From: a virus
Virus record (IMG/VR): IMGVR_UViG_3300030616_000506
Span: 62,001-126,000 of that record
Direction: 5' to 3' (one strand)
DNA: 64,000 nt
How positions within the stretch are numbered: position 1 is the first letter of the stretch; every line of letters starts with the position of its first letter. This document shows, in pieces, positions 21,755 to 64,000 of the stretch. The position numbers and the translations under genes are program-made. The notes beneath the pieces are model-generated. The model was not told the origin of the DNA. It worked only from the letters and a program-made list of their open reading frames with translations, and ran no database searches.

Positions 21755-22578
21755 TTATATCCATATATATCATTAATTTCATCTGGGCATTCTCCAATGT
21801 AATCTAATAGCTCATTTTTATATTTCATGTGTATGTATATTCTTTTATCTTTACAAATACTACCATCAAATCCTAAATCTCTTAATTTATTTAATAAAAA
21901 TTCTATATCCCTATACAAATATGCTTGTGTACAAAATCCAATCCCACTAGTCTTTCCATAGTTTGATCCATCTCCAATATACCATTGTCTTAAGGTTATA
22001 GGGGTTAATTTTAAATCTTTTGGAACTATTTTCTTATATAAAGAGTGCTCATTACATACAGGACATCTTTTAAATTCTAATTTGTTAATTTCAATTTCAC
22101 AATATGGACAAAATTTACTATTATTTAAATACCATTTATCATATAAAGTTTTTAATTCTCTATAACTTTTACTATAATAATGATATAAATTATAATTTCC
22201 CTCTTTTAACCATCTTTTATGGGAGGATTTATAATCATTTCCTATTCTTGTAATTCCATGTTTCTTTAATATAGAATCTAACCATTTAAGGTATTTACTA
22301 TATTTAGACGTATAAACTAATACTCCAGATTTATTATGTCTTAAATGTAAGCAACCATCTCCCAACAGTTCTCCATTAAGAAATTCTATTAATTTATCAT
22401 TTAATTTAATGTGATTTGCTCTATAATTATAACCTCTACTAGGTATATTTAATTTATATAACCAATTCCATATTGTAGTTGGCACAACGTGTTGCTCATC
22501 TGATATAGAATAGATTGATTTTCTCTTTATTACGTATTCGTTATACAACCAATCTTTATCTCTATAGTTTTTATTCAT
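21736..22578 (-). CDS. LAGLIDADG homing endonuclease (free-standing)
   Basis: A protein of about 280 residues with two LAGLIDADG-type helices, FLNGELLGDGCL near residue 89 and LRQWYIGDGSN near 200, each carrying the catalytic acidic residue. Between them is a zinc-ribbon-like CPYCEI..CPVC. The N-terminus looks like a helix-turn-helix (SIYSISDEQHVVPTTIWNWL). ATG at 22578 is preferred to an upstream TTG. It is not inside an intron or intein that I can see; it is inserted between the glycosyltransferase gene and a hypothetical gene, with overlaps at both ends. Confidence 0.87.
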   Translation of the reverse strand: MNKNYRDKDWLYNEYVIKRKSIYSISDEQHVVPTTIWNWLYKLNIPSRGYNYRANHIKLNDKLIEFLNGELLGDGCLHLRHNKSGVLVYTSKYSKYLKWLDSILKKHGITRIGNDYKSSHKRWLKEGNYNLYHYYSKSYRELKTLYDKWYLNNSKFCPYCEIEINKLEFKRCPVCNEHSLYKKIVPKDLKLTPITLRQWYIGDGSNYGKTSGIGFCTQAYLYRDIEFLLNKLRDLGFDGSICKDKRIYIHMKYKNELLDYIGECPDEINDIYGYKWNRYE

Positions 22579-22910
22579 ATACAACTCACCAATAATTTAT
22601 CTAGTAATATTTCTATATCAGTTTCATAAAATTTAAAATCTCTATATCCTATCCATTTACTATTTTCTTTTTTATCTAATATACCATTGTATCTTTTAAA
22701 TTTACAATAGTGTAAATTTTGATTTATATGTTGCCAAGTGTAATGGATGCCACATCCTTTATTAAATAAGATTCTTTGGGTATGTAATAATTCTTTATTT
22801 GGATGAGATCTTTTTATTAATAACCATTCATCATTCTCATTTAATATTTCAAATTTTGTATCCTTTAACCAACTTGGATGATATGTTTCTTTATAATCTT
22901 TGATATTCAT
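22575..22910 (-). CDS. Hypothetical protein
   Basis: A 111-residue protein, starting at the ATG that overlaps the HAD gene stop as ATGA. It has aromatic-rich strands (IHYTWQHINQNLHYCKF) but no family I recognise. It ends DKLLVSCI, close to the C-terminal tail seen on many small proteins of this window, and the last codons contain GGTGAG ahead of the next gene's ATG. It could be a companion of the adjacent homing endonuclease. Confidence 0.6.
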   Translation of the reverse strand: MNIKDYKETYHPSWLKDTKFEILNENDEWLLIKRSHPNKELLHTQRILFNKGCGIHYTWQHINQNLHYCKFKRYNGILDKKENSKWIGYRDFKFYETDIEILLDKLLVSCI

Positions 22911-23254
22911 TTTTTCCACTGAGCGGTTATTCCTGAATAAAAACTCCATCTATTTAGAAATTCTTCTGGAGATATAGTTCTATCATCAACATATATTTCT
23001 CCACCAGGTTTACCAAATCTTAATTCGTGATATTTCACACCCCAATCTGATAATTGTTTTTTAGTTTCATCTAGCCAGTCTCTTTTATGTACTGATCCTC
23101 TAGCAGTAAATATAGTTATATGTTCTCCTGAGTCATATAACTCATTGATTTTCTTTATGATATCTTTTCTAGGAGTTGACTCCAAATACTCCCATGTATC
23201 AAAGTCATATGTTGTATCACAAATAGTTCCATCTAAATCAAATACCCATCTCAT
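22907..23254 (-). CDS. HAD-superfamily phosphatase (small)
   Basis: A 115-residue HAD hydrolase beginning MRWVFDLDGTICD, with nucleophile D6 and acid D8. TARGS supplies motif II and IYVDDRTI supplies motif IV. It resembles small capsule-cluster phosphatases. Its likely partner reactions are the GmhA-like isomerase and PfkB kinase in this operon, in which a bisphosphate must lose one phosphate. ATGA overlaps at both ends. Confidence 0.85.
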   Translation of the reverse strand: MRWVFDLDGTICDTTYDFDTWEYLESTPRKDIIKKINELYDSGEHITIFTARGSVHKRDWLDETKKQLSDWGVKYHELRFGKPGGEIYVDDRTISPEEFLNRWSFYSGITAQWKK

Positions 23255-28626: not shown

Positions 28627-29196
28627 TTAGACCTTATTCCTATAAAGTTTCGGGTCTATAACATCCTTTGCTTTATCAATATCCAAATCTGGATAGTATA
28701 TCCTAAGTTCATTTAATTCACTTGGATAGTTACCATTATTAAATAGTCCTCTATGGGATATTAATATCAATTTTACATCGTCTCTTTTTCTCATTTCATC
28801 TAATATATTATTTCTAAGTTTAATTAACGCTAATCTTAAATCTTCTTTATCAGCTTCATACTCTTTGGAAGCCATTTTTAGTGTCGATTCAATTATTTCC
28901 TTTATATTTCTATCCATAAATATTACTTCATATTTACCCTTTGGTAGATATTTAAGACCATAAGCAGTTATTTTAATAAATTTACCTTTATATTTATCGA
29001 ATGGAAAATCCCCATTTTTTAGTTTATTTATTATTTTACCCTTCTCTAGTTCATAGTATCCTTTAGGATTATTCTTATCAGCTTCTCTAGAATCATCATA
29101 AGCTATCGGTAATCCTCCAGCTTTTAGTATTTGCATCATTAGACTAGTTCCAGATCTCTCTATACCAGATACGATATAGTTAGTCTTCTCGTTCAT
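28627..29196 (-). CDS. Sulfotransferase-like P-loop protein
   Basis: A 189-residue protein whose N-terminus YIVSGIERSGTSLMMQIL is the 5'-phosphosulfate-binding loop of sulfotransferases. The 3'-phosphate region is approximate (FMDRNIKEIIESTLKM). It is smaller than classical enzymes (about 280). Context between the reductase and a small gene gives no substrate. It could act on surface sugars together with the protein at 10475-11428. Confidence 0.65.
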   Translation of the reverse strand: MNEKTNYIVSGIERSGTSLMMQILKAGGLPIAYDDSREADKNNPKGYYELEKGKIINKLKNGDFPFDKYKGKFIKITAYGLKYLPKGKYEVIFMDRNIKEIIESTLKMASKEYEADKEDLRLALIKLRNNILDEMRKRDDVKLILISHRGLFNNGNYPSELNELRIYYPDLDIDKAKDVIDPKLYRNKV

Positions 29197-29516
29197 ATCT
29201 TACTCACCATTAATTTATCTATATACTCTTGATATGTGATATTATTTAAATCCTCTAAATTATTTATAGCTTCTAAAGCTTCATATATATCTATTGTATA
29301 TTCTCCATCTTTAAATTTAATTTTAATATTTTCTCCACTGGATACGGGCTGTCCTAGTAATTTCAAATCTATGTTAGCGTAAGGATTATCCTCAGCACTC
29401 ATTTCTATATTGTATGCAGTCATCCCCCATAATTTAAATGCAAATTTAGATCCATTATCACCCATAGTTATAATCATGTAATCTCCGTTCATTTGAATTG
29501 ATCTGTCCTTCTTCAT
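29193..29516 (-). CDS. Hypothetical beta-rich protein with C-terminal MV tail
   Basis: A 107-residue protein rich in predicted strands (MIITMGDNGSKFAFKLWG; ENIKIKFKDGEYTIDI) followed by a helix and the ending DKLMVSKI. The last codons contain GGTGAG, an archaeal-type ribosome-binding site for the overlapping downstream gene (ATGA). Family unknown. Confidence 0.6.
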   Translation of the reverse strand: MKKDRSIQMNGDYMIITMGDNGSKFAFKLWGMTAYNIEMSAEDNPYANIDLKLLGQPVSSGENIKIKFKDGEYTIDIYEALEAINNLEDLNNITYQEYIDKLMVSKI

Positions 29517-45537: not shown

Positions 45538-45737
45538 GGTGAAAACTCATATAATAAATTCCAAATAGCACAATATTTACCGTTAGCTACTTCCTTCTTA
45601 GCTCTTGCATATAATTCTTCCCAATTATCTGAATACACTGAATTTCCTATTCTATTTTCATCATCTATTATTTCCATCATATACTTCTCATCCTTATAAG
45701 CTTTTAGTCTATATTTTTCTCTTTCATATTTTCTCAT
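45534..45737 (-). CDS. Small basic protein
   Basis: A 67-residue Tyr/Lys-rich protein beginning MRKYEREKYRLKAYKDEKYM. Unknown; coupled to its neighbours by ATGA overlaps. Confidence 0.55.
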   Translation of the reverse strand: MRKYEREKYRLKAYKDEKYMMEIIDDENRIGNSVYSDNWEELYARAKKEVANGKYCAIWNLLYEFSP

Positions 45738-45988
45738 AATCTATTCACCATTATCCAATCCTTAAGATTGCTTAAGGTCTTTATTGTTCCATTAAATAAA
45801 TCATCTATATTAAGACTATCCAAATCTAGATTAAAGTTAATTTGTTCACCACCTTCAAGAATAACTTCCATGTTAGTTATTCTATCGGCATCTCCAGTAG
45901 AAATATTTAGACACTTAATTTTTATCTCTTGAGTTATTTCTATTGATTTAACTCCCTCTATATTGTGGGATCTTATTATAGATGTCAT
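45734..45988 (-). CDS. Small beta-rich protein with MV tail
   Basis: An 84-residue protein: strands (KSIEITQEIKIKCLNIS; EGGEQINFNLDL) then a helix and the end DWIMVNRL. The tail codons include GGTGAA upstream of the overlapping next gene. Unknown. Confidence 0.58.
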   Translation of the reverse strand: MTSIIRSHNIEGVKSIEITQEIKIKCLNISTGDADRITNMEVILEGGEQINFNLDLDSLNIDDLFNGTIKTLSNLKDWIMVNRL

Positions 45989-46305
45989 AATCTAATCACA
46001 AATAATCTATCCTTTAAATCTTCTAGGAGTATCTTATTATATCCCTCTTCTAATAGAGTTTCTACTTCACTCTTTTTTATACTAAAGTTCTGAGTAATCA
46101 AATACTCTTCCTCATCCTTAGAGTAAGTTTGACCATAAGTAGGTATATTTAGAGATGTACTACTAATTGTATAGTATCCAGATGATGTCCCTGCCCAATT
46201 GGTTCCTGAATAAGATCTGGCTCCTCCACCCTGATCTATTTCTTGTAGAGCTTTATATAAATATACATATCCATCAATCAATACATTCTCAAGAATACTT
46301 TTCAT
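45985..46305 (-). CDS. Small protein with conserved C-terminal helix, paralogue 1
   Basis: A 106-residue protein. Its C-terminal half (SEVETLLEEGYNKILLEDLK, ending FVIRL) is closely similar to that of the next gene product upstream (REIERLIRQGYKKVTLEQLK, ending AVERL). The middle is Ser/Thr/Gly-rich. The shared end suggests a docking module. Unknown family. Confidence 0.58.
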   Translation of the reverse strand: MKSILENVLIDGYVYLYKALQEIDQGGGARSYSGTNWAGTSSGYYTISSTSLNIPTYGQTYSKDEEEYLITQNFSIKKSEVETLLEEGYNKILLEDLKDRLFVIRL

Positions 46306-46529
46306 AATCTCTCAACTGCTATTAAATCTTTTAATTGCTCAAGAGTTACTTTTTTATAACCTTGTCTTATGAGACGTTCAATCTCTCTTGAATCCAACCA
46401 GAATAGATTATTAACTAATATATTCCAGGATGATACAGTCCAATCTCCATAATCACTAGTATACTTTACGTTCTTAATTAGTTCAGATAGATCTATTATT
46501 GTCTCGGACGAATTCTTTGATTCTATCAT
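46302..46529 (-). CDS. Small protein with conserved C-terminal helix, paralogue 2
   Basis: A 75-residue protein sharing the C-terminal helix and GYxKv.LE.LKD motif with the protein encoded at 45985-46305. Overlaps the exonuclease gene by 47 bases in another frame. Unknown. Confidence 0.55.
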   Translation of the reverse strand: MIESKNSSETIIDLSELIKNVKYTSDYGDWTVSSWNILVNNLFWLDSREIERLIRQGYKKVTLEQLKDLIAVERL

Positions 46530-47154
46530 GTAGCTTCTCCAGGATGATAACGTCCTTCTTATTATGATCTAATATATAATCTAATGCTTTCTTATCTCCA
46601 GATAAAGCTTTAATCCAGTGTATACTCTCTATATGAGTTTTACCCACTATACCAAGATGCTTACAAGCTGATTCTAATCTATTACTATGTAGACACATCT
46701 TAGCTCTTACCATATACCAAATATCTTTATGATGTAGTTCACCGTACATTGGAAATTCTAAATCCCAATACATGGCTCTAGTTCTTATAAAGGGTATATC
46801 AAATTTAGTTGAGTAGTATCCCATAACTACATCAAACTTTTTCATATCTGTTATACAGTCTTTAACTAATCTCTTATCTAGAGTTCCATTCTCTATCTCT
46901 TTTTTAGTTATAACTCCTGTATGTATTTTCTTGGAGCCTCTTTCCTTTATACAGTAAGATAACATAATACCAAAGTTAGCCTTTAGATTAGATGTCTCAA
47001 TATCTAGATATCCTATCTTTATATTATCTTCCTTCTCCTCTATATAACATGCTGGATGTTCAGCATATGTATGGCCGTGTTTGCATCTACCCCTAAATAA
47101 ATCAAGAAGCTCCGCTTTCTTCATTATAAAGGGATTAAATTTTTCTTTTGTCAT
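46483..47154 (-). CDS. RNase H-like 3'-5' exonuclease (DnaQ/YprB type)
   Basis: A 223-residue DEDD-family nuclease. GYLDIETSNLKANFG gives the first acidic pair, VMGYYSTKFDIPFI the second, and DHNKKDVIILEKLHDRI the last Asp. This arrangement resembles YprB-type exonucleases and Exo domains of polymerases. An N-terminal CKHGHTYAEHPAC could bind zinc. It may proofread or process DNA ends in replication. Confidence 0.82.
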   Translation of the reverse strand: MTKEKFNPFIMKKAELLDLFRGRCKHGHTYAEHPACYIEEKEDNIKIGYLDIETSNLKANFGIMLSYCIKERGSKKIHTGVITKKEIENGTLDKRLVKDCITDMKKFDVVMGYYSTKFDIPFIRTRAMYWDLEFPMYGELHHKDIWYMVRAKMCLHSNRLESACKHLGIVGKTHIESIHWIKALSGDKKALDYILDHNKKDVIILEKLHDRIKEFVRDNNRSI

Positions 47155-48285: not shown

Positions 48286-48726
48286 TTATAACTCATCTAC
48301 AAATACTTTATCTTTAAATTCTTCGTATGACATATTCTCTGGTGGTCCATACTCTTCTTTAATATTAGAATAAGTTTCATAAGATACCTTATGAGCTCCA
48401 TCAGTAAACTTTACTGGTGGAAATGGTTCTAAATATTTTACTTTAAATGTAGCATTACAAGTACAATTTCCATTTACATCTACATTCATATCAAAGGAAG
48501 ATACCAAACAGTCTTTAGCTATATAACAATCTCCATCATTTAAATCTATAGATAGATCCATTTCTGATTGATTACTCAGTTTATTTATATCATTTGAATT
48601 TGGTATAAATTCTAACTCTAGATCTATATCCTTATAACCAAGTGCATAAGTTGGATCTGAGCTTGTAACTGAATAATATGTATTCAAATTATTATTATAA
48701 GTTAGTTTAGTAGCTTGTATCTTCAA
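48286..48726 (-). CDS. Hypothetical beta-rich protein with MV-type tail
   Basis: A 146-residue strand-rich protein (IDLELEFIPNSNDI, CTCNATFKVKYLEPF) ending FKDKVFVDEL. Here the stop is TAA and the next gene starts 25 bases later with its own AAGGAG, so the tail is not explained by overlap coupling. Possible structural protein beside the collagen-like gene. Unknown family. Confidence 0.58.
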   Translation of the reverse strand: MKIQATKLTYNNNLNTYYSVTSSDPTYALGYKDIDLELEFIPNSNDINKLSNQSEMDLSIDLNDGDCYIAKDCLVSSFDMNVDVNGNCTCNATFKVKYLEPFPPVKFTDGAHKVSYETYSNIKEEYGPPENMSYEEFKDKVFVDEL

Positions 48727-49355
48727 TTAAGAGTCTCCATTATCTTTTCCGCTAACTTCTTTCCTATTCCATCTACTTTCTGTAAATCAACTAAATTAGC
48801 ATTAGCTATATTTCTTGGAGATCCAAAGTGTTTCAATAAAGACTTTGCCTTTGTAATAGATACTCCCTCTATTGCCGTTAAACAGTTTTCCTTTCTCATC
48901 TGAATTGATTTAGCTCTACGCATCTGAGGAGCTGGTCTTTCTGATTTACCATTCTCATGTATCTTTTTATCCAAGCTAACCACATAACTTATAAATTCTT
49001 CCTCATCTTGAAGAAACATAATCTTTAATTTTGGATATTTAGTTGTTAGGGTGGTTAGAGTACCTAGATAACTTCTATGGATATATCTACTTCTACTAAA
49101 GTAAAATGTTTTCCAAAGATCTTGCAATGTTATACATAATATAGGATGATCATACTGTGAAAGATTATTAAGTTGTTCATAAAGACGATTACTCTGAATG
49201 GAAGATATTAGATCCTTATCCTTCCTTTCAATAGCATATCCATTATCTAGGAGATAATCTCCTACTTCTATAAAGTCAGTTTTAACTTCTAACTTTTTAT
49301 TCTTTAATGAATTAATTATATGAGAGGGTTCTCTCGAATCAACTATTATTGTCAT
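48723..49355 (-). CDS. ERCC4/XPF-family nuclease with HhH domain
   Basis: A 210-residue archaeal-type structure-specific nuclease. The N-terminal catalytic motif is IIVDSREPS (D6, R8, E9), then VGDYLL and IERKDKDLI, which give the ERKxxxD signature. The C-terminal tandem helix-hairpin-helix motifs (TAIEGVSITKAKSLLKHFGS; KVDGIGKKLAEKI) bind DNA. It is the size of stand-alone archaeal XPF without the helicase of Hef. It cuts flap or fork DNA in repair or replication. Confidence 0.92.
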   Translation of the reverse strand: MTIIVDSREPSHIINSLKNKKLEVKTDFIEVGDYLLDNGYAIERKDKDLISSIQSNRLYEQLNNLSQYDHPILCITLQDLWKTFYFSRSRYIHRSYLGTLTTLTTKYPKLKIMFLQDEEEFISYVVSLDKKIHENGKSERPAPQMRRAKSIQMRKENCLTAIEGVSITKAKSLLKHFGSPRNIANANLVDLQKVDGIGKKLAEKIMETLN

Positions 49356-50417: not shown

Positions 50418-50722
50418 ATAAGATATGCATCCATATACTCTTTATAGCACTTATTACTACAACAGTGATGTATATAGGGATGATTGTAGTCTAAAGATTT
50501 ATATTCTTCTTCGGATATCATAATTTCTTTACTGCAATTTATGCATGTAGTTTTCCTATTTAAAACCTTCCAACAATTTTTACAGGATCTAACATCCCAT
50601 CCTGTACCATGAGCAGGTGCCCATTCTTCAATACACCATGTAGTATCTTTATGTTCACACTTACTTTGTATCTTCTTTAGATTCTCATCATACTCATCTT
50701 TTAATTCTTGAGCAGTCTTCAT
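50414..50722 (-). CDS. Zinc-finger protein
   Basis: A 102-residue protein with nine Cys and several His: CEHKD, SCKNCW, CINCSKE and HHCCSNKCYKEY (a possible MYND- or FYVE-like cluster). Helical N-terminus. Probably two zinc sites. Unknown function. Confidence 0.62.
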   Translation of the reverse strand: MKTAQELKDEYDENLKKIQSKCEHKDTTWCIEEWAPAHGTGWDVRSCKNCWKVLNRKTTCINCSKEIMISEEEYKSLDYNHPYIHHCCSNKCYKEYMDAYLI

Positions 50723-51015
50723 AAGGCAATCACCATTAATAAATCTTTAAGATGTTCTTTATCTCTGATACGATTTATATTAAAGTGTTCTCTTAAATTA
50801 AGATAATCTAAATAATCAACTCTCTCACTTGTACCATCTAGAAATTTTATCTCTTCTGTTAGAAAATTTGCTATATATTCATGTAAATTACTTTGTACCA
50901 TTTTAGGATCATATCCCATTTTAGTAACAGTATTAATGGCAGCAACAAGTTCATCTACTGTAACTCCACTTGAAGCTGCTATAGTTGACATCTTAACTAT
51001 TTGTTTTTTATTCAT
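50719..51015 (-). CDS. Small protein coupled to the SWIM-RadA gene
   Basis: A 98-residue protein starting MNKKQIVKMSTIAASSGVTV; helical with an HTH-like IAASSGVTVDELVAAINTV. It ends KDLLMVIAL, and the final codons contain a perfect GGTGAT for the next gene. Its start overlaps the end of the recombinase gene, so it is probably co-translated and may regulate or assist recombination. Confidence 0.6.
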   Translation of the reverse strand: MNKKQIVKMSTIAASSGVTVDELVAAINTVTKMGYDPKMVQSNLHEYIANFLTEEIKFLDGTSERVDYLDYLNLREHFNINRIRDKEHLKDLLMVIAL

Positions 51016-52054
51016 CACAGAAACCAAAGTCCTTTTTAAGTCTAACTGGATATAGCTGATCATCTTGTGGGACATCCGGTCTCCTAAGTAGCTTGATTCT
51101 TCTAGTTTCATTTCCCCATCCAGTTTCTGTTTGTAATTTCTTGGGTGCATCTATAAATTCTAGTGCATACTTTGAATTATAAAGTACAGGATTACCACCA
51201 TAAGGTTTACCTAGATCTCTACCAAATGGCATAACTGGATTGATACTAGCATGATGATTAACAACTACCGCTATATTATATCTAGCCGCTATATCATATA
51301 GTTTACCGTATAGTCTCTGCATTAACTCTGCTCTAGAGGGTAAGTTCTGTGTATTGGATCCTACTGAATCTTTTACTGGTTTAGTGAAAGAATCTATTAT
51401 TATCATTGAGGTTTCTTCCAACTCCTTCTCCTTAAGTTTAGGAGTACAGTTAGTAAACTTTAATGTATATTTACCATTTTTAGATATCTCATCTGTAACT
51501 ATATATCCAAACAATTGGAACATTTTTTGGTAGGATTTTAATTGAATGTCTCCCATTGTATGTATAACTTTATATTTGTCATCTATTGTTTTCTTATCTA
51601 ATCCCCATCTATCCATAAACTTATACTGAATAGCTCTAACATCATATGTCCTTAATCCTTCTGTCTCTATAAGAATTGTATTGTTTCCTGTTTCAGCTAT
51701 ATTAGCTAAACCTACTTGATGACCAAATAGTGATTTACCGGCAGTTGGTTCTCCATATATAGAAGTAACTATTCCATAGGGTACTCCTCCTCCAAGTAAT
51801 TCATCTACCTTATTACATCCAGTTGCTATAAAGTTTAATTTTTTCTTAACCATTTTATCATACTCCAAATTATTTATTAGATGAATAATATGCTTACAAC
51901 TCTTTCCTTCCTTACTAAATATATAGGAAGGACAGGTACACCACGATCTACAAAGTTCGGAGTCAGCACAGGTTATATATTCCTTACCACTATCTCCTAC
52001 TATAATAGCTCTGGCTATACCTAGATTATCATATTGTAAGCTCTTTATTATCAT
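51008..52054 (-). CDS. SWIM zinc finger fused to RadA/KaiC-like recombinase
   Basis: A 348-residue protein. Residues 20-60 hold a SWIM-type zinc finger (WCTCPSYIFSKEGKSCKH: C39, C41, C53, H55). Residues 72-340 form a RecA-fold ATPase: Walker A GEPTAGKS (101-108), a catalytic-Glu-type segment, ETEGLRTYDVR, and Walker B SMIIIDSFTKPV. Archaeal RadA normally has an HhH N-domain, not SWIM. SWIM proteins (Sws1) partner with Rad51 paralogues in eukaryotes, so the fusion links two known partners. Likely catalyses or loads strand exchange for the element. Confidence 0.87.
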   Translation of the reverse strand: MIIKSLQYDNLGIARAIIVGDSGKEYITCADSELCRSWCTCPSYIFSKEGKSCKHIIHLINNLEYDKMVKKKLNFIATGCNKVDELLGGGVPYGIVTSIYGEPTAGKSLFGHQVGLANIAETGNNTILIETEGLRTYDVRAIQYKFMDRWGLDKKTIDDKYKVIHTMGDIQLKSYQKMFQLFGYIVTDEISKNGKYTLKFTNCTPKLKEKELEETSMIIIDSFTKPVKDSVGSNTQNLPSRAELMQRLYGKLYDIAARYNIAVVVNHHASINPVMPFGRDLGKPYGGNPVLYNSKYALEFIDAPKKLQTETGWGNETRRIKLLRRPDVPQDDQLYPVRLKKDFGFCDE

Positions 52055-55096: not shown

Positions 55097-55154
55097 TTTT
55101 CTTGCTCCGTATAGTTATTATGTTAGGGAAACATTTATATAGTTTGTGATTCAT
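55089..55154 (-). CDS. Possible 21-residue leader peptide
   Basis: MNHKLYKCFPNIITIRSKKN plus one residue; its ATG overlaps the stop of the MV-tail gene as ATGA, and its stop overlaps the start of the next gene. It may only carry translational coupling across a short gap. Confidence 0.35.
   Translation of the reverse strand: MNHKLYKCFPNIITIRSKKNE
55133..55142 (-). promoter_or_regulatory. Candidate archaeal TATA box
   Basis: CTATATAAAT on the minus strand, about 37-46 bases upstream of the ATG at 55096. Spacing suits a transcription start about 25 bases downstream followed by a short leader. Unconfirmed, since TATA-like strings are common in this AT-rich DNA. Confidence 0.3.
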
Positions 55155-55498
55155 AAAATTTCTACCATCGCTTCTTCCTTATCTAACTTTTCTCCATACT
55201 CATTAATATATGATCTATTAACTAGAGCATTTTTATTATTGGTTATATTATAATATCTATAATGTTTACTAACATATCCTAGTATCCTTATTACTATAGT
55301 ATCATCATCTTTCCATTTTAATCTTAAAATATCTCCTTTCTTATATTTCTTTCTGTAACTCCATCTCTCCTTTAGATAACCTATAGGATGATAGGGAGAA
55401 TTATAAAAGATATGAGTTACTCCTACTACAGTGATAAGACAAAAACCAAATAATATTAGCACATACATTGTAGCATTAAATATATCTATCCAATTCAT
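55151..55498 (-). CDS. Membrane-anchored SH3-like small protein with MV tail
   Basis: A 115-residue protein: one N-terminal span (TMYVLILFGFCLITVVGVTHI), then a basic SH3-barrel-like region (KGDILRLKWKDDDTIVIRIL) and the tail KEEAMVEIL. It belongs to the family of SH3-like proteins clustered at 59.8-64 kb but carries an added membrane anchor. Confidence 0.6.
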   Translation of the reverse strand: MNWIDIFNATMYVLILFGFCLITVVGVTHIFYNSPYHPIGYLKERWSYRKKYKKGDILRLKWKDDDTIVIRILGYVSKHYRYYNITNNKNALVNRSYINEYGEKLDKEEAMVEIL

Positions 55499-55743
55499 AA
55501 TAACTCCACCATTATATCATCTTCTGATAATCTAGTTAATGTGTCATGTATCCTATCAATATAAGTGATTTCATCATCTTCAACACCACTATCTATATTA
55601 ATAATACACTTTATACAATCTTCAAAGCAATCATCTTTATAATGTACATCTATAATAATTATACCTATAAAACTCTCTCCATTATCTAAAGTTACCTTTA
55701 CAATATCTCCCTTATTTAAGTCAGTGAATTTTAAAGATGACAT
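55495..55743 (-). CDS. SH3-like small protein with MV tail
   Basis: An 82-residue protein: NKGDIVKVTLDNGESFIGII opens a KOW/SH3-like barrel, acidic middle, and the end LSEDDIMVELL. The tail codons include GGTGGAG before the overlapping next gene. Member of the window's SH3-like family. Confidence 0.62.
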   Translation of the reverse strand: MSSLKFTDLNKGDIVKVTLDNGESFIGIIIIDVHYKDDCFEDCIKCIINIDSGVEDDEITYIDRIHDTLTRLSEDDIMVELL

Positions 55744-59775: not shown

Positions 59776-60021
59776 TTAAAGCTCTTCTATCATTAATTTG
59801 TCCTTGCTTATTTTCATTACACATTTTTTATCTATTGCTCCATACTTATGGGGATTTTCTGACTTTAACATCTTAACATAATAGAACTCTTCTCCATCAT
59901 CTCCTATTATGTATCCATAATGATCATCCCAAACTAAACCTACCCATCCACAATCTTCATCTCCAGGTATAGAATATAGATAAGTAGTCTTTAATACTCT
60001 AAAGTAATCACCCTTTTTCAT
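59776..60021 (-). CDS. SH3-like small protein with MV-type tail
   Basis: An 81-residue protein: KKGDYFRVLKTTYLYSIPGD, barrel-like strands, and the tail SKDKLMIEEL. Its stop is TAA with no overlapping next start, so the tail is not a by-product of coupling here. Member of the clustered SH3-like family. Confidence 0.62.
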   Translation of the reverse strand: MKKGDYFRVLKTTYLYSIPGDEDCGWVGLVWDDHYGYIIGDDGEEFYYVKMLKSENPHKYGAIDKKCVMKISKDKLMIEEL

Positions 60022-60263
60022 AATGATGCAACCATAGCCTCATCTTCCGTTAATTCTGTAGCACATTTATCCCAATAGTATCTGCTACAATATATTATTC
60101 CTATATTTCCTTCTATAGGATCTACATATAATTTATACTTAAGACTAACTCCATACATACAACCATCAGGTTGATGTTTTACTCCTGCTAATCTAATCAC
60201 ATAATGCTCTTCTCTGAAAGTATCATTGTATCTATAATATCTACCTATCTTCATTGATGTCAT
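60018..60263 (-). CDS. SH3-like small protein with MV tail
   Basis: An 81-residue protein: MKIGRYYRYNDTFREEHYVI, strand-rich, ending TEDEAMVASL. Overlaps both neighbours by ATGA. Same family as the next genes. Confidence 0.6.
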   Translation of the reverse strand: MTSMKIGRYYRYNDTFREEHYVIRLAGVKHQPDGCMYGVSLKYKLYVDPIEGNIGIIYCSRYYWDKCATELTEDEAMVASL

Positions 60264-60493
60264 AAACTATCAACAATTAATTCATCAAGAGTATCATAAA
60301 ATTTAAACATCTGATGCCAACCAAATTCACTGTCTCCTTTCCATATCCAATGATACTTAACTTTAGGATTATGGGGATAATTTGATTTTATTAATTCATA
60401 TTTATAAACTACTTTACACTCTTTAAATATCTTACCTACTATATAAAAACCTATTTTATCTATTTTAAAATACTTTCCTTCTTTAGATTTCAT
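60260..60493 (-). CDS. SH3-like small protein with MV-type tail
   Basis: A 77-residue protein: EGKYFKIDKIGFYIVGKIFK opens the barrel; it ends LDELIVDSL. The start overlaps the upstream gene by 11 bases. Confidence 0.58.
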   Translation of the reverse strand: MKSKEGKYFKIDKIGFYIVGKIFKECKVVYKYELIKSNYPHNPKVKYHWIWKGDSEFGWHQMFKFYDTLDELIVDSL

Positions 60494-60761
60494 ACATCAT
60501 CATCTCATCTAATAGATTTTTACCTAAATAAGATAGTAACTTTTTCTTATTATTAAATCTGACAGATACATTCTTATCATCATCTGCACTTATTAAAATA
60601 ACTTCATAATCATCATCAACACCACCATGAATAACTAATGATAATCTATTATCCTTTAATTTATAAACCCATAAATAGTAATCATAATTAACCACATAGA
60701 ATACATCTGGATATATTAAATTAATTAATTCTTCTACTTCATTACATATTCTATTCTTCAT
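60483..60761 (-). CDS. Hypothetical protein in the SH3-like array
   Basis: A 92-residue strand-rich protein with an acidic middle (GGVDDDYEVILISADDDKN) and a C-terminal helix LSYLGKNLLDEMMMYEI that lacks the MV tail. Possibly a divergent member or an inserted gene. Confidence 0.55.
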   Translation of the reverse strand: MKNRICNEVEELINLIYPDVFYVVNYDYYLWVYKLKDNRLSLVIHGGVDDDYEVILISADDDKNVSVRFNNKKKLLSYLGKNLLDEMMMYEI

Positions 60762-60997
60762 AATAGTTCAACCATAACTTCTTCATAAGATAGTTTCTTA
60801 CAAATTTCATTCTTGAAGTTTAAACCAATCCATCTATCTCCCCACATCCATTGAAGTTTTCCAATAGTTTTTATTATTTTAAATTTATATTGATTAATTT
60901 TATTTTTATTTATAATTTTTAATATATAAACTCCGTGTAAATATCTAGACTCATATAATATATAGTCTCCTATCTCAAATTTATCATAGGGTCTCAT
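60758..60997 (-). CDS. SH3-like small protein with MV tail
   Basis: A 79-residue protein: FEIGDYILYESRYLHGVYIL, basic strands and LSYEEVMVELL. ATGA overlaps at both ends. Confidence 0.62.
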   Translation of the reverse strand: MRPYDKFEIGDYILYESRYLHGVYILKIINKNKINQYKFKIIKTIGKLQWMWGDRWIGLNFKNEICKKLSYEEVMVELL

Positions 60998-61386
60998 ATC
61001 TTATCAACTATATTTGCATCTATTACATAAGTAAAGTCATGATACATTCTTATTGAATACTTATAATCATCATTCTCTATATCATTTGTATAAGATAATC
61101 TATTAACTACCCAATCAAAATCCTTTTTATTAAGTAAACCAAATGAGCCTAAACTATAATATTCTCCATAAAACTTTTTATTATAAGATAACTTTAAATC
61201 AGCTCTATTCATTAAGTTCTTAACTAATGGCATAGATATATCTATAGCCTCAGGATTTATTGTTAAATATACTCCTCCCCAATTCTTATCATCATTACTC
61301 TTATATATAGTTCCCCATATATTACCAGTTATCTTTTCATTATCACTTTTTCTAGTGATTATATATTCCCCTATCTTTTTCTTCAT
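60994..61386 (-). CDS. Hypothetical protein
   Basis: A 130-residue protein with alternating strands (GEYIITRKSDNEKITGNIWG) and helices (MPLVKNLMNRADLK). It ends DANIVDKI, loosely like the tail family. Unknown. Confidence 0.55.
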   Translation of the reverse strand: MKKKIGEYIITRKSDNEKITGNIWGTIYKSNDDKNWGGVYLTINPEAIDISMPLVKNLMNRADLKLSYNKKFYGEYYSLGSFGLLNKKDFDWVVNRLSYTNDIENDDYKYSIRMYHDFTYVIDANIVDKI

Positions 61387-61395
61387 ACTAACTCC

Positions 61396-62307
61396 CTAAA
61401 TTAATCTATGTAAGATATAAGGTGATACTTCCTCTCTAAATTTAGAATAAGCCTTTGAGTTATTTTCATATACTTTCTTAACATTATCTATAATATCTTC
61501 CAATAATCCAATAGCTCTATCATCTAATTGTCCTAACATAAATCTATCATCATCACTTAATCCTGCACCAAGAACAATTCTATAACCATAATAAGCATCT
61601 TTTTTACTAAAGTTTAAATTTATTAAATCAGATTCAATTGATACCCTCATTTTATCATAATTTATAATAGATAAATCTTGTATACCTTCACTATAATTAT
61701 TTTCAATCTTAATCCTATTAGTATTTAATTTTATTTCATTATCCTTTAAATCTATATCCCTCCATGCTAATGCACATTTCCTAAATGCTCTAAATATTTC
61801 TTTCTTATCCTCTTTTTTTATGTAATCCTCTATATCAGGATTTCTTTCTACTATATATAAGATAGCTTTAAAGTCATCCATCATCTTTGTTGCATCTTTA
61901 TCATGTTGTCTATAACTCCAATAGTAATATCTATCATTAGGTTTAAAGGCTAATCCTCTAGAATTTAACCATAATTCTTTTTCCCATGTAGATTCCTTTA
62001 CCTTATCGGATATCTTTATATTTGTTTCTATTCTACCCGATATTATTCCATGAAAGGATTTAAAGTATAATTCCCTAAATGAATTCCTAATATTACTTAA
62101 GCTATTCTCTCCCCTCATATATGTATTAACTTCATCTATTAAACTTTCTAATCCCTCTACTTCATTTGTATTATCTATAATAAACTTTTCTGTTATTTTC
62201 TCTTTCTTTTCCTTTATATCATTTATTTGATTTTCTAGTTTATCCTTCTCTAAATCAAGTTCTTCTATTTTTTTATTTACATCTTCTATCTTTTTATTTA
62301 TATCCAC
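61396..62307 (-). CDS. Coiled-coil protein
   Basis: A 303-residue protein. Residues 1-48 form a strong coiled coil (NKKIEELDLEKDKLENQIND). The remainder is helical and Lys/Asp-rich with no recognised domain (KAILYIVERNPDIEDYIKK). It interrupts the SH3-like array. It follows AGGAGGT. Perhaps a scaffold or internal virion protein. Confidence 0.6.
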   Translation of the reverse strand: MDINKKIEDVNKKIEELDLEKDKLENQINDIKEKKEKITEKFIIDNTNEVEGLESLIDEVNTYMRGENSLSNIRNSFRELYFKSFHGIISGRIETNIKISDKVKESTWEKELWLNSRGLAFKPNDRYYYWSYRQHDKDATKMMDDFKAILYIVERNPDIEDYIKKEDKKEIFRAFRKCALAWRDIDLKDNEIKLNTNRIKIENNYSEGIQDLSIINYDKMRVSIESDLINLNFSKKDAYYGYRIVLGAGLSDDDRFMLGQLDDRAIGLLEDIIDNVKKVYENNSKAYSKFREEVSPYILHRLI

Positions 62308-62317
62308 ATTTTACCTC

Positions 62318-62557
62318 CTATAAACTCTCAACTATCATTTCATCTTTACTTATCTTTTTATAATCCCAAGCATCCTTATGACAAGTTATTCCTATTAATC
62401 TACTGTGCCTCATAAATTCATTAGTTATAATACTAGTAAATATCTGTTTTAGTTTAACTTCTATTAAATTATTATATTGTTTTACTGACTCAATATAAAT
62501 AAATGATTTATATTTACCATCTGGATATATATAGTATTCTCCCTTTTTAGGTATCAT
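62318..62557 (-). CDS. SH3-like small protein with MV-type tail
   Basis: A 79-residue protein: PKKGEYYIYPDGKYKSFIYI and the tail ISKDEMIVESL. The stop is TAG, followed by a separate AGGAGGT for the next gene, so the tail is not forced by coupling. Confidence 0.62.
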   Translation of the reverse strand: MIPKKGEYYIYPDGKYKSFIYIESVKQYNNLIEVKLKQIFTSIITNEFMRHSRLIGITCHKDAWDYKKISKDEMIVESL

Positions 62558-62784
62558 AGTAATTCAACCATAGCCTCATCTTTAGATAATTTCTTTAAAT
62601 CAAAAGCATATCTTTTTATACCATTAGTATGATTTATAAAATATTCTCCATATATATTTGGTATATATAATAATGGACATATTAAGTAGTAATCAGTATC
62701 TACTTCCTCCTTTATGATTCCATATATAGGATTATCTTTATATGGATAATCTGATTTAACTAAATCTCCTTTCTTAAATTTCAT
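62554..62784 (-). CDS. SH3-like small protein with MV tail
   Basis: A 76-residue protein: FKKGDLVKSDYPYKDNPIYG, the GDxV start of KOW/SH3 barrels, and the tail SKDEAMVELL. ATGA overlaps at both ends. Confidence 0.64.
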   Translation of the reverse strand: MKFKKGDLVKSDYPYKDNPIYGIIKEEVDTDYYLICPLLYIPNIYGEYFINHTNGIKRYAFDLKKLSKDEAMVELL

Positions 62785-63008
62785 AATAACTCTACCATTA
62801 CTTCATCTCTATTTGCTATCCTTAAACATTTATCATCAAACAATTCTGTTCTTCCTTTAATCCTTCCATTTAGAAATCTAACAATATATGGATATTTTTT
62901 AATTGGATATACATCTATTATTTCTGCTATTAATCCAACTTGATTCCTATAATATGTAACCTTTGGATGAAGTATTATCTTCACATAATCTCCTACTTTA
63001 TACTTCAT
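62781..63008 (-). CDS. SH3-like small protein with MV tail
   Basis: A 75-residue protein: YKVGDYVKIILHPKVTYYRN, then VGLIAEIIDVYPIKKYPYIV, the clearest KOW-like barrel of the set, and the tail NRDEVMVELL. Very similar tail to its neighbours. Confidence 0.66.
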   Translation of the reverse strand: MKYKVGDYVKIILHPKVTYYRNQVGLIAEIIDVYPIKKYPYIVRFLNGRIKGRTELFDDKCLRIANRDEVMVELL

Positions 63009-63247
63009 AACAATTCTACCATTACTTCATCTTTATTCTTAATAAAAGTTATATCTATTACTGATGAATCTAAATTAAAATGTCCTTTTTCTCCTACATC
63101 CCAAACACTATTCTCATCAGCATATATAACTTTACAATAAGGAAATTTATTTATTCTTGTATTATATTCTAATACTACAAAATATACTTCAAATGATTTG
63201 TAATATTTATATATAGCCTTTATATAATCTCCCTTTTTAAATTTCAT
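63005..63247 (-). CDS. SH3-like small protein with MV tail
   Basis: An 80-residue protein: FKKGDYIKAIYKYYKSFEVY opens the barrel; it ends NKDEVMVELL. ATGA overlaps at both ends. Confidence 0.64.
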   Translation of the reverse strand: MKFKKGDYIKAIYKYYKSFEVYFVVLEYNTRINKFPYCKVIYADENSVWDVGEKGHFNLDSSVIDITFIKNKDEVMVELL

Positions 63248-63483
63248 AAATTAAACACCATTATTTCATCATCAGTTAACTTCCTATCAATTTCCTCTTC
63301 AGATAATAAAAACTCAAACTCAGTGTTAACATAACTTGAATTTAGTATCTTAACTAGATAGGGATATTTTCTATCCTTTCTTAATTTAGTTACTATTGCT
63401 ACCTTATTCTCAAATCCATCATAAATTGTTTTTCCTATTAATATATAATCATTTAATTTATATAATAGTTTCTTGAATCTCAT
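63244..63483 (-). CDS. SH3-like small protein with MV tail
   Basis: A 79-residue protein: LNDYILIGKTIYDGFENKVA, then KYPYLVKIL as in its neighbour's KYPYIVRFL, and the tail TDDEIMVFNL. ATGA overlaps at both ends. Confidence 0.64.
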   Translation of the reverse strand: MRFKKLLYKLNDYILIGKTIYDGFENKVAIVTKLRKDRKYPYLVKILNSSYVNTEFEFLLSEEEIDRKLTDDEIMVFNL

Positions 63484-63671
63484 AACATCTCTACCATAAT
63501 TTCATCATTAGATAATTTTTTATAATCAACACTATCACTAAAATAAATCTTTGTATTAGGATTAAATAATGATTCCCCTTCATAGCAATAAATATAATTA
63601 CTCTCTATTATAGTAATTCTAAATAATTCTCCTTCATGATTTTTAATTACATCTCCTTCTTTAAACTTCAT
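63480..63671 (-). CDS. SH3-like small protein with MV tail (short)
   Basis: A 63-residue, shortest member: FKEGDVIKNHEGELFRITII and the tail SNDEIMVEML. Confidence 0.62.
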   Translation of the reverse strand: MKFKEGDVIKNHEGELFRITIIESNYIYCYEGESLFNPNTKIYFSDSVDYKKLSNDEIMVEML

Positions 63672-63964
63672 AATAATTCTACCATTAATTCTTCCTTTAA
63701 TTTATTAATGTCATTAACCTTAAACCATCTCCTATGTAAAGCAGGAAATATAAAACTTAAATTTATAGGGAGATTCCAGTATGTTATATCATTTGTATTA
63801 ATTTTACTATCATTAGTTTTCTTATATAAAACTTTAACTTCAACATAATTAAAATCTGCTCCAGCCATATACCTTTTCTTTAATTCTAATATCCTTCTAA
63901 TCTCTAACACAAATATATTAACCTTATTATCATCTACTTGTGCAATTATATCTCCTATTTTCAT
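63668..63964 (-). CDS. Small protein with MV tail in the SH3-like array
   Basis: A 98-residue protein: MKIGDIIAQVDDNKVNIFVL then a longer basic middle (ILELKKRYMAGADFNYVEVK) and the tail KEELMVELL. The N-terminal GDII fits the family; the middle is divergent. Confidence 0.6.
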   Translation of the reverse strand: MKIGDIIAQVDDNKVNIFVLEIRRILELKKRYMAGADFNYVEVKVLYKKTNDSKINTNDITYWNLPINLSFIFPALHRRWFKVNDINKLKEELMVELL

Positions 63965-64000
63965 AAAAATTCAACCATAAGACTATCCAGTATATCATCT
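63961..64000 (-). CDS. C-terminus of another MV-tail protein (5' end outside window)
   Basis: The last 40 bases encode DDILDSLMVEFL and a TGA that overlaps the ATG of the next gene. It carries the tail motif, so the array continues beyond the window. Confidence 0.6.
   Translation of the reverse strand, partial: DDILDSLMVEFL

Follow-up and report, generated by a model that had tools for sequence, protein, structure and literature searches.

The DNA described here is a stretch of 64,000 nucleotides (the window), which represents positions 62001-126000 of the 144,545-base IMG/VR virus record IMGVR_UViG_3300030616_000506. Its long open reading frames (ORFs) are located on the minus strand, and a set of small proteins encoded there ends with a common tail of the form D/E-x-phi-M-V-x-x-L/I (phi, hydrophobic residue), referred to below as the tag. 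C-termini were compiled over a total of 82.5 kb, comprising the window plus the flank to its right (L003), and here 31 of the 177 coding-strand (minus) ORFs carry the tail. Of these genes, 21 lie fully within the window, one crosses its right end (63961-64287) and nine are located in L003. Together with two 20-kb stretches to the left of the window, L175 and L176, all but 22 kb of the record was read. An earlier note on this DNA had described about 20 small proteins with such a tail, and the ten tails quoted in it are present at their sites. The gene ending at 59776, cited there for a tail without overlap to the next gene, does show one, but its actual tail is DKLMIEEL. The tag genes of the window and two genes located among them are as follows.

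63961-64000, minus strand: 3' part of a tag gene (63961-64287, 108 aa) across the window edge, tail LDSLMVEFL
63668-63964, minus strand: tag protein, 98 aa, tail KEELMVELL
63480-63671, minus strand: tag protein, 63 aa, tail NDEIMVEML
63244-63483, minus strand: tag protein, 79 aa, barrel cluster member, tail DDEIMVFNL
63005-63247, minus strand: tag protein, 80 aa, tail KDEVMVELL
62781-63008, minus strand: tag protein, 75 aa, predicted SH3/PsaE-like barrel with C-terminal helix (67-74), tail RDEVMVELL
62554-62784, minus strand: tag protein, 76 aa, tail KDEAMVELL
62318-62557, minus strand: tag protein, 79 aa, without ATGA overlap, tail KDEMIVESL
61396-62307, minus strand: 303-aa protein within the tag cluster, end YILHRLI, excluded from the tag count
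60994-61386, minus strand: 130-aa protein, deviant tail DANIVDKI (L004 ortholog DANIVESI), outside the pattern count
60758-60997, minus strand: tag protein, 79 aa, tail YEEVMVELL
60483-60761, minus strand: tag protein, 92 aa, tail LDEMMMYEI; orthologs DELMVLKL (L004), NYIVAMAL (L005)
60260-60493, minus strand: tag protein, 77 aa, tail LDELIVDSL
60018-60263, minus strand: tag protein, 81 aa, tail EDEAMVASL
59776-60021, minus strand: tag protein, 81 aa, without overlap, tail KDKLMIEEL
55495-55743, minus strand: tag protein, 82 aa, tail EDDIMVELL
55151-55498, minus strand: tag protein, 115 aa, tail KEEAMVEIL; the next ORF in the list begins 54 nt downstream
50719-51150, minus strand: tag protein, 143 aa, tail KDLLMVIAL
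48286-48726, minus strand: tag protein, 146 aa, without overlap, tail KDKVFVDEL
46302-46529, minus strand: tag protein, 75 aa, tail KDLIAVERL
45985-46305, minus strand: tag protein, 106 aa, tail KDRLFVIRL
45734-45988, minus strand: tag protein, 84 aa, tail KDWIMVNRL
29193-29516, minus strand: tag protein, 107 aa, tail IDKLMVSKI
22575-22949, minus strand: tag protein, 124 aa, tail LDKLLVSCI

The shared tail is real and clearly exceeds chance. The counting pattern ..[AILMVFWYT][MLFIAYT][VIM]..[LI], applied to the C-termini of ORFs of at least 40 aa, matches 97 of 24,157 internal 8-mers (0.4%), so that 0.7 C-termini would be expected where 31 were observed. Although this pattern leaves its first two positions free, D or E occupies the eighth residue from the end (P-7, the last residue being P0) in 29 of the 31 tails. 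A stricter pattern was found in 19 of the 135 minus-strand ORFs of the window compared with none of its 102 plus-strand ORFs; both patterns were devised after inspection of the data.

The tail was also assessed by a motif-free test, which scores the best combination of three residues, each at a set distance from the stop codon and with L and I pooled, and which included further phage sequences. These are L004, a fragment of 39 kb with a VWA protein 68% identical to that of the window phage; G3, a 155-kb contig (L052 and its neighbours) with identities of 61% for MoxR and 53% for DNA polymerase; L005, a 67-kb contig with 49% identity for MoxR; and G4 (L178) and G6 (L183), fragments from other phages. 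Values of log10 p were -41.1 for the window phage (18 of 170 genes), -47.7 for G3 (24 of 182), -28.8 for L004 (11 of 43), -32.8 for G4 (10 of 19), -10.0 for G6 (4 of 36) and -10.8 for L005 (4 of 33). The G6 count of six tails under the pattern includes one membrane-like chance match (FVLVAIIFLVTI). For comparison, internal 8-mers were sampled at random 60 or 200 times for each set; no sample scored below -9.2, and none of the 60 for the window phage below -6.4. The same test on the first nine residues after the start reached -10.8 in the window phage and -12.1 in L004, signals (KxKxG and IEM, respectively) that we take to reflect barrel paralogs and a start-site motif. Thus, the tail scores of G6 and L005 are modest when taken alone. 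As a separate observation on gene starts, a junction GTGATTGAA(A)ATG is repeated as a second shared start-site motif at four sites of the window phage (59210, 73917, 74045 and 75516 on the window scale, the last three in L003) and at four sites of L004 (3.1-4.7 kb), and is absent from L005, L046 and the G3 stretch.

No triple common to at least four C-termini was detected in 148 control strands of 82 loci, namely 80 cellular loci, phage G and S-TIM5, with strands of fewer than ten ORFs excluded. Among viral loci with homologs of the MoxR-like ATPase, the only shared-end signals besides the window phage, L004, G3, L005 and their duplicates came from L082/L083 and L041. In the latter, a distant phage locus, HxxNxFxx is common to four of 29 C-termini on the minus strand. 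Left of the window, a looser pattern was matched by four of 87 ORFs on both strands of L175 and L176, none with an acidic P-7. L176 (G000:C1:12001-32000) furthermore harbors a plus-strand ORF of 3344 aa, which runs opposite to the long ORFs of the window. The tag sits on small proteins; among those longer than 150 aa it was found in none of 57 in the window phage and in one of 59 in G3.

Selection on the peptide and on its codons

The earlier note had offered two explanations for the tail, a nucleotide-level one, in which ribosome-binding sites together with ATGA overlaps force the Val and the final Leu/Ile, and a protein-level tag, and had allowed that both may act. In its pure form, the former states that the ribosome-binding site (GGTGA, GGAG) and the overlap dictate the last codons, the peptide being a by-product. 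Tails are indeed denser at ATGA overlaps, with 22 of 49 such genes against 9 of 128 others in the window phage, so that translation coupling contributes. The codon GTG at P-3 is exclusive to overlap tails (11/22 versus 0/9 in the window phage, p 0.012), and the Ile codon ATA at this position shows the reverse distribution (0/22 versus 4/9). Moreover, overlap tails pair with the 3' end of the 16S rRNA more strongly than synonymous random codons, by a mean of -1.75 kcal/mol in the window phage (seen in 16 of 22 genes, p 0.05 by a sign test) and of -3.09 in G3 (19 of 21 genes, p 2e-4). No such tuning was observed in L004, with -0.19 in nine overlap tails (4/9) and -1.33 in four others. That an overlap can create a shared tail is illustrated by L082/L083, where tandem small genes starting with (M/V)KVGDLV at 7.1-8.5 and 14.2-14.7 kb overlap their predecessors by 14 nt and the latter end in (E)SR; these ESR ends were rejected as a tag and represent an overlap artefact.

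Nevertheless, tails are not restricted to overlapping starts in any of the three phages with larger numbers. They occur in the 9 of 128 non-overlap genes of the window phage (0.5 expected, p 3e-9), in 4 of 28 in L004 (p 4e-5; 9 of 19 at overlaps) and in 15 of 130 in G3 (p 1e-15; 21 of 59 at overlaps), a class which still includes close junctions. The persistence without overlap that the earlier note had reported for single genes is thereby borne out. In the strictest cases of the window phage (the genes ending at 67251, 62318, 59776, 55151 and 48286), the next listed ORF starts at least 10 nt past the stop, and in L178 the tail is kept before a gap of more than 400 nt to the next ORF of at least 40 aa. 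Conversely, 27 of the 49 overlap genes of the window phage are tailless. An acidic P-7 would also lie upstream of the ribosome-binding site expected for the next start, and the 148 control strands were devoid of any shared triple.

The comparison at codon level points in the same direction. Pairs of window-phage tails with the same residue share its codon in a fraction of 0.33 at P-3 (0.39 expected) and of 0.50 at P-2 (0.59 expected), and in G3 these two positions are about at expectation. Thus, the core of the tail keeps the residue while the codon drifts. The value is high at P0 of the window phage (0.78 versus 0.41 expected), the position at which ATGA demands a final A. In fact, no more than the third base of this codon is set by the overlap, so that the word "force" used for Val and the final Leu/Ile was too strong. 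Taken together, the tails without overlap and the codon statistics at P-3 and P-2 indicate that selection acts on the peptide, and on these grounds an explanation by nucleotides alone was rejected as hardly conceivable. The data support a tag at the protein level. In overlap genes, the tail codons are in addition tuned toward ribosome binding, a real but secondary layer that is absent in L004. Both levels do act, with the peptide in the first place.

Versions of the tag and the proteins that carry it

In the relatives, the tag occurs in versions of their own. Of the 189 G3 ORFs examined, 36 have E-phi-F-L-E-x-L-like ends, and in L005 I-V-A-x-x-L-like ends are found on four or five genes around its own MoxR-VWA pair. 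Positions P-4 and P-3 are mainly M-V in the window phage and L004 and mainly F-L or F-M in G3; F at P-4 was counted in 3 of 33, 0 of 14 and 25 of 36 tails of the window phage, L004 and G3, respectively, these totals being obtained with a slightly wider pattern. Orthologs follow the genome in which they reside. The members of a zinc-ribbon-like family end with KMLVDKL in the window phage, KIMVKRI in L004 and EIFMEEL and EILIHML in G3, and those of the 60483 family with DEMMMYEI in the window phage and with the L004 and L005 tails listed above. The window phage and G3 are largely collinear at about 50% identity, and in slots between their conserved genes (e.g. beside 46483-47154 and 48723-49355) the tag proteins of the two have no match to each other at E 1e-3. 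By these sequences, each phage has its own version of the tag, which changes in concert within a genome, with variable bodies set on a constant, phage-specific handle.

Searches of IMG/VR with a DNA pattern for the window-phage tail returned only the L004 contig (as L045) and a chance match, L044. The DNA polymerase of the window phage had no match in the phage collection, and none of eight candidates from a single-sequence scan of IMG/VR was confirmed; an alignment-based scan led to G3 and to a distant match, L174. With a G3-type tail pattern, IMG/VR yielded L178, L180, L183 and G3 itself (L181), the candidates L179 and L182 being discarded as they contain no tail gene. A further tail pattern retrieved the same three (L178, L180 and L183) without any addition; the sequences of L180 and L183 are almost identical. 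L178 contains ten consecutive genes whose products end with I/M/L-[ST]-x-E-E-A-F-[IL]-E-[MI]-L, and after removal of the last 13 residues only two pairs of these proteins remain similar at E <0.01. It also encodes terminase, sheath and tube proteins, for which the matches to named phages are T4-like myoviruses (31-34% identity of the terminase to 15 listed named-phage terminases). These structural genes mark it as a different kind of phage from that of the window, in whose record the terminase family PF03237 had no match. A cultured close relative of the L178 phage was not found in the phage collection. Sequence comparison thus shows the tag in a second phage lineage.

The bodies of the tag proteins were compared in a pool of 80 proteins (31 from the window phage, 13 from L004 and 36 from G3). 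With the last 14 residues cut they fall into 61 sequence clusters, of which 50 are singletons, whereas the uncut proteins form 47 clusters with a maximum size of 21. The largest cluster without tails comprises eight small barrel proteins across three phages. For one of them (62781-63008), the AlphaFold2 model has a mean pLDDT of 88 and a C-terminal helix at residues 67-74; among solved structures it weakly matches the PsaE and YorP barrels (best E 1.4e-3), and among predicted structures many small phage proteins (best E 4.8e-4). A second cluster is zinc-ribbon-like by its conserved cysteines, and the AlphaFold2 model of a member has a helix at residues 62-76 with low confidence there (pLDDT about 57-67). 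Judging by these models, the tag seems to occur on no fewer than two folds. The tag proteins scanned had no Pfam match above the curated cut-off, the best being DUF4537 (6e-4) for a G3 protein. The best PHROGs match was that of the 48286 protein to a minor tail family (E 0.004, over 40 of 146 residues).

Function and possible partners of the tag

The tail is probably a C-terminal docking tag by which the variable accessory proteins of a phage are all recruited to a single partner. Such a tag would comprise about 8-11 residues, with the fullest form [IL]-[ST]-K-[DE]-E-phi-[MF]-[VLI]-E-x-[LI]-COOH, of which the window phage shows the first three positions as no more than a tendency, and from the models it would form a short C-terminal helix. 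It is found on numerous small accessory proteins, the majority with bodies lacking detectable sequence kinship, and would be read in trans by the partner. Since all tails of a genome must then fit the same partner, they would change together between phages. At ATGA overlaps, the same codons would also help to build the ribosome-binding site of the next gene. We infer docking and a common partner from the occurrence of the tag on 31 small proteins in the window phage and 36 in G3, within about 80 kb each, which suggests action through one shared partner.

Packaging, degradation, self-association and recruitment to an AAA+ machine are all possible from the sequences, and as the partner we would guess an AAA+ machine for remodelling or proteolysis. 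In the lineage of the window phage, the first candidate, named here with due reserve, is the phage's own MoxR-like ATPase together with a metallopeptidase-VWA protein encoded in the tag cluster. A second candidate, again our guess, is a host machine; a host partner common to unlike phages would also be in line with the similarity of the G3 and G4 tags. Phage genomes abound in small accessory proteins without known function, and the partner would provide a handle on the whole set. The stop-anchored search finds the tag from sequence alone where family searches miss it, and applied to other phages the corresponding test could bring further sets of this kind to light. In the portion of the literature covered, which included few subscription journals, nothing was found on phage accessory proteins with a C-terminal tag in common. 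The encapsulation peptides of bacterial microcompartments are likewise short amphipathic helices at the ends of unrelated proteins, but no shell genes were seen among the proteins scanned.

Several observations weigh against a docking tag. No partner for it was found. The acidic P-7 is the rule in the window phage but not in G3 (E at P-7 in 7 of 36 tails, at P-6 in 20 of 36) or L005, and in L005 and G6 the tail is known from four or five genes, with scores no better than the N-terminal signals. Codon sharing exceeds expectation at P-5 of the window phage (0.64 versus 0.44) and at P-4 and P-1 of G3 (0.75 versus 0.59 and 0.67 versus 0.38), and tags are denser at ATGA overlaps. A barrel-like N-terminal motif (G-[DE]-[YFV]-like) is present in 12 of 33 tag proteins of the window phage and in 19 of 36 of G3, so that bodies taken for unlike could be rapidly evolving relatives with a single fold. 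Homologs of one or the other gene of the candidate pair also occur without the tag. None of 38 viral loci chosen by their VWA homolog contains it (searched with the window-phage pattern only), nor do the 33 viral and 80 cellular loci chosen by an ATPase homolog. It is likewise absent from the stretches of phage G and S-TIM5 and from a 50-kb stretch of Moorella phage MTATph1, whose VWA gene is 27% identical to that of the window phage and has a neighbour annotated as ATPase. In reverse, DUF2201 was not found in the incomplete tag fragments G004-G006 by a search that recovered both positive controls, and the AAA_5 ATPase was not found in them by a search that also missed the known G3 gene. Two further searches of these fragments for the pair, made without a positive control, were negative as well.

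The two genes of the pair are located in L003, right of the window.

L003:2194-3339, minus strand: MoxR-like ATPase in the tag-gene cluster
L003:399-1739, minus strand: DUF2201 metallopeptidase-VWA protein in the tag-gene cluster

That the tail serves as a substrate or adaptor tag for this ATPase and its partner is suggested by gene positions and by precedent. Tag genes concentrate near the pair in the window phage (21 of 36 genes within 5 kb versus 10 of 141 farther away) and in G3 (31 of 74 within 10 kb versus 5 of 115 beyond), and tag and pair co-occur in the window phage, L004, G3 and L005. In all four, the VWA protein has an intact, invariant MIDAS (D314-T-S-G-S, T380, D404) and an invariant HEVMH motif; its gene carries the annotation HNH endonuclease in several phage records. 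For the MoxR-VWA system CbbQO, a C-terminal HK/R motif of rubisco is reported to be required, as is an acidic residue for which binding to the MIDAS has been proposed (PMC4660213), which sets a precedent for such a pair reading a C-terminal sequence. CbbQO differs in having one dedicated target, compared with dozens of tag proteins in the window phage and an acidic position that varies among the versions of the tag. Of 50,697 phage records, 705 contain a match to the VWA protein and 756 one to the ATPase. The same two families also lie close together in other phages (phrog_1297 and phrog_1314, a pair which we take to be N4-like), where the stretches examined show no tagged small genes around them. 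Given the pair without tag in phage G, S-TIM5 and MTATph1 and the tag without a detected pair in incomplete T4-like fragments, and since the clustering may reflect a single accessory region only, we regard this role as rather unlikely.

Equally, it is rather unlikely that the tail is a degradation tag, in which case the tag proteins themselves would be rapidly degraded by an AAA+ protease of the host (ClpXP-like), and early functions would thereby be timed. The proteins are small and accessory, hydrophobic C-terminal ends are a common type of degron, and a host factor common to different lineages would explain their nearly identical tags (EAFLEIL-like and EEAFIEIL). Conservation over at least eight residues with acidic positions, however, would exceed the needs of a simple C-degron. 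The ssrA-type degron of ClpXP ends in small residues such as LAA, which the enriched end M-V-x-x-L/I does not match (L and I were pooled in the motif-free test and are demanded by the counting pattern).

A further, quite doubtful possibility is that the tag proteins are interchangeable adaptors, each body gripping a different host target of defence or housekeeping and the tail delivering it to an AAA+ machine. This machine, the phage MoxR and metallopeptidase-VWA pair or a host protease, would unfold or cleave the target. If true, tag and machine would co-evolve in each phage, and these proteins would be a phage counterpart to the F-box adaptors of poxviruses. As far as the descriptions covered reach, the poxviral ankyrin-repeat/F-box (PRANC) proteins are likewise variable accessory proteins that share a docking element for one common machine. 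This element is C-terminal in the poxviral proteins. They differ in sharing an ankyrin body and in docking to a eukaryotic ubiquitin ligase, whereas the bodies of the window-phage type are unlike each other. Ankyrin-repeat or F-box-like Pfam domains were not detected at E 0.1 in 20 proteins scanned (19 with the pattern tail and that of 67968-68606 with a deviant tail).

Common descent would make the tag proteins one fast-evolving family, mostly SH3-like barrels, with the helix as last element of the fold. The barrel cluster of eight spanning three phages, the weak resemblance of its model to PsaE and YorP and the barrel-like starts mentioned above fit this view. However, the same tail is found on the zinc-ribbon-like family, on larger proteins (143 and 146 aa in the window phage, 221 aa in L004 and 207 aa in G3) and on the 55151 protein, whose N-terminus looks membrane-like by eye. 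Without tails, the bodies are not alignable as one family (61 clusters for 80 proteins), and descent alone leaves unexplained why orthologs bear the tail type of their own genome. We consider it improbable. Similarly improbable is self-association, by which tails would bind each other in mixed assemblies and match within a phage for this reason; the concerted change within genomes and the amphipathic pattern agree with it, but the acidic positions on most copies would be expected to repel.

Very unlikely, finally, is a capsid packaging tag, by which accessory proteins would be directed to the head and ejected from it. A short shared terminal peptide on a set of variable small proteins resembles the capsid targeting sequence of the T4 internal proteins, which is N-terminal and cleaved during head maturation. 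In the window phage, G3 and L178 the shared stretch is C-terminal, the tag genes lie among replication and accessory genes and not among known head genes, and the tails of L005 lack the E needed for a T4-type cleavage site.

Other genes of the window

The 303-aa protein encoded within the tag cluster (61396-62307) has weak orthologs in L004 (31% identity), G3 (22%) and L005 (22%), the last of which ends with YILVAQQL. A scan of IMG/VR for this protein confirmed none of seven candidates; since L004 holds a relative which the scan missed, it was insensitive. At the other end of the window (1-25.6 kb), genes are closely packed, and seven of them that were scanned gave matches to aminotransferase, two radical SAM proteins, glycosyltransferase and nucleotide-sugar epimerase. 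By these matches, the region looks like a locus for sugar or surface modification.

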